Origin: Ramlibacter paludis
Lineage (GTDB): Bacteria > Pseudomonadota > Gammaproteobacteria > Burkholderiales > Burkholderiaceae_C
NCBI RefSeq assembly: GCF_022012305.1
Contig: NZ_JAKLTM010000002.1
Location: 1 to 64,000, forward strand
Reading direction: 5' to 3'
DNA: 64,000 nt
The notes under the pieces are model-generated. The model did not search any database. It was not told the DNA's origin and saw only the letters and a list, made by a program, of their open reading frames with translations. The position numbers and the translations under genes were made by a program. Numbering within the stretch: the stretch's first letter is position 1; the number at the start of each line of letters is the position of its first letter. Below, one piece after another: positions 40,388 to 44,158 of this stretch.

Positions 40388-40421
40388 AAAAAGGGACCAG
40401 TGCTTGCAAGCCCTGGCCCCT
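40388..40421 (-). terminator. Terminator-like hairpin before pheS
   Basis: On the minus strand AGGGGCCAG pairs with CTGGTCCCT (nine pairs including one G-U) around a palindromic loop GCTTGCAAGC, and TTTTT follows. It lies only 9 nt before the pheS ATG. It should attenuate transcription from rplT into pheST. I looked for a Phe-rich leader ORF as in the enteric pheM system and did not find one. Confidence 0.75.
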
Positions 40422-41220: not shown

Positions 41221-41832
41221 CTACTGCGCCGTCGTCGCGCCGGCGGGGGCCGGTGCGGCTTCGGTCGCCGGCTTGGCAGGCGCCGGCTTCTTCTTGCCCG
41301 GCGCGATCATCATGATCATCTGCCGGCCTTCCAGCTTGGGGAACTGCTCCACCAGGATGGTGTCCCCGAGGTCGTCGCGCAGGCGGTTCAACAGCGCCAT
41401 GCCGATTTCCTGGTGCGTGATCTCGCGGCCGCGGAAGCGCAGCGTGATCTTGCACTTGTCGCCTTCCGCCAGGAAACGCCGGATATTGCGCAACTTGATG
41501 TTGTAGTCGCCGTCATCCGTTCCGGGGCGGAACTTGATTTCCTTGATTTCGATGACCGTCTGCTTGGCTTTCGCTTCGGCCGCCTTCTTCTGTTCCTGGT
41601 ACTTGAACTTGCCGTAGTCCATCAGCCGGCACACGGGCGGGCTGGCGGTCGCGGCGATTTCGACCAGGTCCACATCGAGCTCACCGGCCATGCGCAGGGC
41701 TTCCGCCAGGCTGACGATTCCCAGGGGCTCGTTGTTCGGTCCGCTCAGGCGGACTTCCGGGGCCATGATTTCCCGGTTCAGGCGGTGCTTGCGTTCCTCG
41801 CGTTGGCGGCGGTCACGAAATTCAGTAGCGAT
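41221..41832 (-). CDS. infC: Translation initiation factor IF-3, ATC start
   Basis: Translation from an ATC codon at 41832 gives 203 residues beginning (I)[28 protein letters not shown]. The segment before the first ATG (41766) is in frame, conserved in kind (basic, with RLN.EI leading into the IF-3 N-domain), and follows AGGAT. Use of a rare start codon is the well-known autoregulatory device of infC. Other marks: [29 protein letters not shown] and a C-domain with [27 protein letters not shown]. An Ala/Pro/Lys tail follows. It starts 37 nt after thrS. Confidence 0.93.
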
Positions 41833-41869: not shown

Positions 41870-43777
<1,908 letters not shown>

Positions 43778-43801: not shown

Positions 43802-43829
43802 AAAAAAGCGCGGGGGCAGCCGCGCTTTT
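43802..43829 (-). terminator. Intrinsic terminator in the thrS leader
   Basis: AAAAGCGCGG (43829-43820), loop CTGCCC and CCGCGCTTTT (43813-43804) followed by TT form a textbook terminator 24 nt before the thrS ATG. It does not sit after a neighbouring gene of normal length, and its 5' arm is also able to pair with an upstream segment, as expected for an attenuator. Confidence 0.85.
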
Positions 43830-43871
43830 CGTTGGGTTGGAGCAACTCAGTGCACGCGACTACGCGGCCGC
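43816..43871 (-). promoter_or_regulatory. Candidate antiterminator helix in the thrS leader
   Basis: Bases 43871-43862 (GCGGCCGCGT on the minus strand) can pair with 43825-43816 (GCGCGGCTGC) in a 10-bp helix with two G-U pairs. The second segment is the 5' arm and loop of the terminator, so the two structures exclude each other. The first segment begins at the last base of the leader-peptide stop codon. A ribosome at that stop would cover it and let the terminator form; a ribosome stalled at Thr codons would leave it free. Confidence 0.65.
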
Positions 43872-43912
43872 TAGCGGGCCGTGGACCTTTCGAAAGTAGT
43901 TCGCGGTGTCAT
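43871..43912 (-). CDS. Candidate thrS leader peptide MTPRTTFERSTAR
   Basis: The ORF has 14 codons including the TAG stop. Four of 13 residues are Thr (ACA, ACT, ACT, ACG). An AAAGG lies about 10 nt before the ATG. It is followed by the antiterminator segment and the terminator before thrS. This is the arrangement of a ribosome-mediated attenuator that senses charged tRNA-Thr. No other evidence of translation is available; its reality rests on the coding bias for Thr and the RNA structure. An unrelated longer frame overlapping it on the same strand continues from the zinc-ribbon gene region and looks like a shadow. Confidence 0.6.
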   Translation of the reverse strand: MTPRTTFERSTAR

Positions 43913-43960
43913 AACCGGGTTGCCTTTCTCGCTCTTGTTGCTCAGGAGATACGTTCCATT

Positions 43961-44158
43961 CTAACTCGCCTTGACGTATCCCGTGCCGCCGCAGCGAGGG
44001 CACTCGGTGATGACGGTCTGCTTTTCCACCTCGAAGTTCTCGTTGATGTTCTCGCTGTCGAAGTGCAGCTGGCCGCTGCCGCCGCAGTCGGGACAGCGGT
44101 TCTGCTGCAGCGCGCTGGCGTCGAAGGCGCCCGTCGTTTCTTCCGTCGAATCGCTCAT
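43961..44158 (-). CDS. Small zinc-ribbon protein, 65 aa
   Basis: The ATG follows GAGGGAG at good spacing. Two CxxCGGxG motifs, CPDCGGSGQ (about residue 22) and CPRCGGTGY (about 53), resemble half of the DnaJ Cys-rich zinc domain and would bind one zinc. The start is acidic and unstructured (MSDSTEETTGAFDAS). It is separated from thrS by the leader region, so it is likely a monocistronic gene, or the thrS transcript could begin upstream of it. The function is unknown; related short proteins are annotated only as zinc-finger hypothetical proteins. Confidence 0.8.
   Translation of the reverse strand: MSDSTEETTGAFDASALQQNRCPDCGGSGQLHFDSENINENFEVEKQTVITECPRCGGTGYVKAS

Follow-up and report, generated by a model that had tools for sequence, protein, structure and literature searches.

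Organization of the thrS upstream region

The window, that is, the whole stretch of 64,000 nucleotides that was analyzed, carries on its minus strand, in this order, an isocitrate-lyase-like gene, a small ORF with cysteine pairs, a leader ORF, a spacer, a terminator, and thrS. All features with coordinates below lie on this strand, and gene names such as thrS are presumed assignments to the respective families. The thrS gene (41870–43777), presumably encoding threonyl-tRNA synthetase (ThrRS) and the candidate for the controlled gene, has matches in the same-genus genomes. It is followed by infC (41221–41832), a match to which was found at 61 of the 63 leader loci described below. The apparent start codon of infC is the rare ATC at 41832, 37 bases past the thrS stop codon.

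The leader ORF MTPRTTFERSTAR comprises 13 codons (43912–43871, including the stop codon TAG at 43873–43871), four of which, codons 2, 5, 6, and 11, specify threonine. It was recognized from the sequence, the same-genus comparison, and the enrichment of Thr codons. The intrinsic terminator GAAAAGCGCGG-CTGCCC-CCGCGCTTTTT lies at 43830–43803 and has an extra T at 43802; with this base included, the element reads GAAAAGCGCGG(CTGCCC)CCGCGCTTTTTT (43802–43830). The gap between the terminator and the thrS start codon (ATG at 43777) is 25 bases. The initial annotation of this DNA had placed a threonine leader ORF and a terminator ahead of thrS, and both were confirmed in the sequence at the coordinates given there.

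Upstream of the leader ORF, a Shine-Dalgarno-like motif, GAGAAAGG (43923–43930), was found that is common to most leaders. One of the tetramers AGGA, GGAG, GAGG, or AAGG is present at positions −22 to −4 of all 30 same-genus leaders and of 30 of 33 others (60/63 in total). Further 5′, the −10-like element TAGAAT (43958–43963; TTAGAAT at 43964–43958) marks a possible promoter; no good −35 element was found beside it, and a consensus scan gave no match there. By eye, a TA(G/A/C)AAT box was seen at the same-genus leaders and at many others, and it is absent from the leaders that come after a tRNA. GAGAAAGGCA and a TAGAAT-like box were likewise seen, by eye, to recur upstream of many leaders. At thrS itself (43797–43778), an AGGA, GGAG, or GAGG motif at −20 to −4 is missing in 25 of the 30 same-genus loci and present in 22 of the 33 other leader loci.

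Conservation of the leader in related genomes

A ThrRS search yielded matches in 59 of 59 same-genus genomes, near-full-length in most of them, with a few incomplete genomes matched only by a fragment or a distant synthetase. From these 59 genomes, 30 loci were examined, the window's own included, and the leader beginning with MTPRT was present in all 30, starting 159 to 125 bases upstream of thrS. The wider set consisted of the best 80 of at least 583 thrS loci of relatives (labeled L033, L105, and so on). In this set, leader and terminator were found together at 33 of 80 loci, seven of these leaders (L066, L067, L070–L073, and L077) having been placed by eye. The 30 same-genus and 33 other leaders were combined to a set of 63, from which L033 was left out because its leader is kept but the finder saw no terminator. 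Leaders with the same plan and other sequences include MFKRTTTTRISR in Vogesella, RTTTTR in Aquitalea, and RTTTR in Achromobacter.

Of 150 genomes of the family, 113, representing 98 of 126 genera, contain an exact copy of the first 14 bases of the leader, compared with 2 of 150 for a reversed-pattern control. Exact occurrences were found in 43 of 300 genomes of the order (reversed control 3) and in 7 of 184 genomes of the class, the own genome and one family genome counted (reversed control 2). In its own genome the 14-mer occurs once, even with one mismatch allowed. The presence of the MTPRT leader at 30 of 30 same-genus loci and of a 14-mer that is single in the genome and widespread in the family shows that the observation is more than chance.

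A covariance model of the leader (R1) gave tallies of 261 of 299 for the family and 191 of 300 for the order, and its strong matches are leaders. Because many weak order-level matches look terminator-only, the exact 14-mer rather than the R1 tallies was taken as the measure of prevalence. Among 40 stretches, which were chosen from the better R1 matches and are no independent sample, a leader-like ORF was found by pattern in 33, with a thrS-like start downstream in 29 of the 33; one stretch, L143, probably contains no leader.

Threonine codons and the fixed opening of the leader

Past codon five, the 30 same-genus leaders have threonine at 67 of 238 positions compared with 8.8% expected from base shuffles, and 26 other MTPRT-type leaders (the 33 minus the seven placed by eye) have it at 47 of 206 compared with 7.9%, an approximately threefold enrichment in counts that come from related sequences and are not independent events. 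Arginine was not enriched past codon five in the same leader sets. The mean number of Thr codons per leader is 4.2 in the same genus and 3.8 in the others, and some leaders among the R1-matching stretches, e.g., MTPRTFLLKR, carry just the two fixed Thr codons.

The leader opens with ACA-CCG-CGA-ACT after its start codon. In five genes of the window, only 3 of the 103 Thr codons are ACA or ACT, and a single one of the 148 Arg codons is CGA. At leader positions 2 and 5 of the same-genus set, in contrast to these genes, ACA or ACT occupies 57 of 60 sites. The first 14–18 bases of the leader are constant even at synonymous sites, and a nearly invariant 18-base block, GGTTATGACACCGCGAAC (43899–43916), spans the start codon. 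Among the 75 distinct leaders beginning ATGACACCGCG, GTT precedes the ATG in 74, and positions −4 to −2 read GGU in 67 and CGU in 8; both triplets are tRNA-Thr anticodons. The start codon can be enclosed as a loop by a 4-bp stem, YGGU-UAUGAC-ACCG, which can form in full in 64 of the 75; in eight leaders with GCGTT, a shifted GCG-CGC hairpin at the start codon is possible instead. In Aquitalea (L071), a start-codon hairpin CCAG-CTGG was seen by eye. The comparison indicates that the invariant opening is under a tighter constraint than the Thr count would require.

Terminator and competing helices

Two alignments drawn from the 63 leaders were used to assess the structures, one of 31 leaders (30 same-genus and L101) aligned by sequence only, and one of 28 leaders chosen for diversity, 11 of them from the same genus. 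In the 31 leaders, 99.4% of the terminator cells are paired, as are 92.8% of those of a small hairpin at the leader stop codon (43865–43881, with arms at 43881–43877 and 43869–43865), two pairs of which show changes on both sides. The alignments also point to three segments that could pair in alternative ways. Segment 1, CGCGAACTAC (43896–43905), lies within the leader ORF and can pair with segment 2, GTAGTCGCGT (43854–43863), which can also pair with segment 3, GCGCGGCTGC (43816–43825). As segment 3 consists of the 5′ arm of the terminator and part of its loop, the predicted 2:3 helix, the antiterminator, and the terminator exclude each other through their common bases.

In the 31 leaders, the antiterminator (43863–43854 with 43825–43816) is paired in 92.8% of the cells. 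None of 500 shuffles per test reached its percentage of paired cells, its covariation score, or its number of pair types, and 284 of 500 had at least as many pairs with changes on both sides. On related sequences, such counts are no probabilities, and related rows may beat shuffles without any structure. In the 28 diverse leaders, 83.6% of the cells are paired compared with 76.3% after shuffling, 25 cells are changed on both sides compared with 12.1, and the covariation score is 0.274 compared with 0.172, values that none of 500 shuffles reached in any of the three cases; 399 of 500 shuffles had at least as many pairs with changes on both sides, and 40 had at least as many pair types. Sliding the antiterminator by one to three columns left at most 46.4% of the cells paired in this alignment. 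A duplex test between spacer and terminator arm gave p ≤ 0.05 in 30 of the 63 leaders, the fraction being 20/30, 6/16, and 4/17 with falling relatedness.

The helix between segments 1 and 2 (43905–43896 with 43863–43855) is paired in 93.9% of the cells of the 31 leaders. In the 28 diverse leaders it showed no covariation, with 75.0% of the cells paired compared with 75.7% after shuffling, and its duplex test was weak, with p ≤ 0.05 in 7 of the 63 leaders.

The initial annotation had proposed 43871–43862 as the antiterminator strand. The complementarity of this strand to 43825–43816 over 10 bases, two G-U pairs among them, is present in the window, and in the window as well as in L002, L006, and L029 this strand gives the best duplex that the terminator arm can form in isolation. 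Neither alignment gave a comparative signal for it: in the 31 leaders it is paired in 82.2% of the cells and is indistinct from shuffles on all five measures, and in the 28 diverse leaders in 65.0% compared with 64.6%. When the stop-codon hairpin was permitted in the folding, the leader of the window paired via 43863–43854. The comparison favours this latter strand, 8 bases downstream of the proposed one, although the helix at 43871–43862 can form in the window and would serve the same job.

Folded alone, the leader has an unremarkable energy (z −1.45). In Rfam, no family (Thr_leader, T-box, or other) reached the gathering score on the leader; the best weak match had an E value of 0.19 and placed an unrelated family on the opposite strand. 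Judged from the alignments, the terminator and the Thr leader are firm, and the antiterminator is well supported, although in its exact register more so for one strand than for the other; the 1:2 helix is only compatible with the scheme.

Loci lacking the leader

Eighteen loci that might speak against a general occurrence were inspected, namely, L033 and 17 loci that lack the MTPRT leader. At 13 of the 17 (L034, L035, L044, L050, L057, L058, L060, L061, L062, L083, L093, L099, and L108), the finder detected a terminator-like hairpin with a T-run. This combination, a terminator kept and the Thr leader absent, is what the initial annotation had named as evidence against its proposal, but several of these hairpins come after a tRNA gene and may be the tRNA's own terminator. 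L034 has a decayed leader, in which the start codon ATG and also the fifth (Thr) codon are lost and the Shine-Dalgarno-like box and the hairpin are kept; in L044, an ORF ends with VRTPRTR. The leaderless loci with a hairpin are read as lineage loss, yet they count against universality. No MTPRT-type leader was found in the Methylophilaceae and in most gammaproteobacterial loci of the set.

Some loci have other elements ahead of thrS. In six Lysobacterales-type loci (L078, L085, L086, L087, L095, and L100), a common GTGYGAC motif is followed by a short ORF of another type, with Thr codons near its start; the ORFs include MSTTTAHR, MDTTRAHR, MATTRFHC, MSTTSSQR, and MSTTPI, and that of L078 has a single Thr. 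A terminator-like hairpin was detected by the finder at five of the six and by eye in L095, and ORF and hairpin possibly form a separate thrS attenuator. L105 and L109 contain, directly before thrS, the hairpin GTGATCC-CTGGTAT-GGATCAC and its like, with GGU in a 7-base loop, which we take to resemble the E. coli thrS operator. A scan of 110 loci for such an E. coli-type operator hairpin showed that it is not conserved along with the leader.

A probable ribosome-mediated attenuator of thrS and alternative explanations

We consider it likely, with good confidence, that leader, terminator, and antiterminator constitute a leader-peptide attenuator of thrS transcription that works through the ribosome and senses charged tRNA-Thr. 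The core of the initial annotation, a Thr leader peptide with a terminator and a competing antiterminator, holds in that this arrangement is kept across many genera. We infer that the leader ORF is translated and that, during transcription of the leader, a ribosome follows RNA polymerase on its 13 codons. With ample charged tRNA-Thr, the ribosome would get to the stop codon, which is seven bases from segment 2, and would cover segment 2 or free it to pair with segment 1; with segment 2 occupied, the terminator would form, and transcription would end upstream of thrS. With scarce charged tRNA-Thr, the ribosome would stall at Thr codons 2, 5, or 6, and the free segment 2 would pair with segment 3, so that transcription would continue into thrS-infC-rpmI-rplT.

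The nearly invariant block GGTTATGACACCGCGAAC, with its constancy at synonymous sites, and the GGU or CGU triplet in front of the start codon would also fit a leader RNA that binds ThrRS or uncharged tRNA-Thr directly, like the E. coli thrS operator, the short ORF being secondary. This is very unlikely because a hairpin of 5 bp whose 7-base loop carries a Thr anticodon was found at only 3 of the 63 leader loci (L037, L038, and L055), two of which, L037 and L038, are close relatives with different triplets, whereas a clear anticodon hairpin stands just before thrS in L105 and L109 instead; moreover, Thr codon bias and antiterminator would need no protein ligand. The rarity of the codons that open the leader raises the question whether an attenuator might sense general translation, or the slow decoding of ACA and CGA, and not threonine itself. 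However, the enrichment past codon five includes the common Thr codons ACG and ACC and does not extend to Arg, and distant leaders retain Thr runs in other sequence, which makes this explanation highly improbable. Intrinsic terminators are common between genes, and the hairpins at the 13 leaderless loci would agree with a partial terminator of the ordinary kind that separates two transcription units and has a chance ORF in front of it; leader, Thr bias, and antiterminator are nevertheless maintained across many genera, and we regard this as extremely improbable.

The attenuator might be overlaid by a second sensor located in the block GGTTATGACACCGCGAAC, in which initiation on the leader, or stalling there, would be gated either by the start-codon hairpin together with three rare codons or by ThrRS bound to an anticodon-like triplet. 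We consider this addition unlikely. If it were true, thrS would sense both tRNA charging and the synthetase level via one 18-base element that is kept across several betaproteobacterial families. The unusually constant opening codons make a case for asking why attenuators pick rare codons.

Reach along the operon

The initial annotation had assumed threonine control of the whole block from thrS to ihfA. A direct reach over thrS-infC-rpmI-rplT is the more likely case, and it is doubtful whether pheST and ihfA are under threonine control, because a second terminator-like hairpin with a T-run, GGGGCCAG...CTGGTCCCTTTTT (40388–40420), stands between rplT and pheS, just before the latter. By eye, counterparts of this hairpin were seen in 18 of the relatives inspected and not in L051 and L053; most others end before that point. 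The consensus scan, which allows loops of 3–8 bases only and missed the thrS terminator as well, found no terminator on the minus strand from thrS to ihfA. At the matching place, E. coli has the pheM attenuator; a Phe-rich leader ORF is not obvious by eye at the hairpin of the window.

Relation to known systems

In E. coli, leader-peptide attenuators are known for thr, his, trp, leu, ilv, pheA, and pheST. As in the amino-acid attenuators of Proteobacteria, the leader of the window combines a short ORF, in which the regulatory codon is frequent, with an antiterminator that competes with an intrinsic terminator through a common middle segment. In contrast to them, it would control thrS and the genes behind it and not threonine biosynthesis, its five opening codons are nearly fixed as DNA, and its 1:2 helix is without covariation support. 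E. coli thrS is the textbook case of a synthetase gene regulating its own translation, with ThrRS binding to a tRNA-like hairpin in the operator. The gene and a feedback tied to threonine charging are thus the same in both systems, but in E. coli control is translational, and the tRNA-like hairpin bound by the protein is not conserved at the leader loci. In Firmicutes, thrS is controlled by a T-box riboswitch, which binds tRNA directly and has no leader ORF; transcription antitermination of thrS by uncharged tRNA-Thr would be common to both, and the leader of the window has no T-box match in Rfam.

Leader-peptide attenuators are treated in general in PMC2965389 and PMC8079986. The former covers attenuation widely and names ThrRS of E. 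coli as an RNA-binding protein that regulates itself, and the word thrS is absent from its main text; the consulted passages of PMC2330054 contain nothing on a thrS leader. The initial annotation had regarded leader-peptide control of thrS as undescribed. This has to be corrected, as PMC8079986 (Table 4) proposes the thrL leader peptide of thrS as an attenuator in Streptomyces lividans TK24. There, too, a leader peptide with Thr codons lies ahead of thrS, but according to that source, the peptide MKRVRPFLETTPGFVPAR has two Thr, the transcript is leaderless, the one hairpin is without a U-run, and the organism belongs to the Actinobacteria; informally compared, the two leaders have no evident sequence likeness. 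Searches of an open literature library showed no thrS leader peptide in Proteobacteria, a result that does not prove that none has been described.

Taken together, the sequence comparisons suggest that, in this bacterium as in many relatives, a shortage of charged tRNA-Thr very probably turns thrS up. The same gene would have two control solutions, with an operator-like hairpin in L105 and L109 and a leader-peptide attenuator here. An attenuator that the Rfam search missed appears to run thrS, initiation factor 3, and two ribosomal proteins in many relatives.
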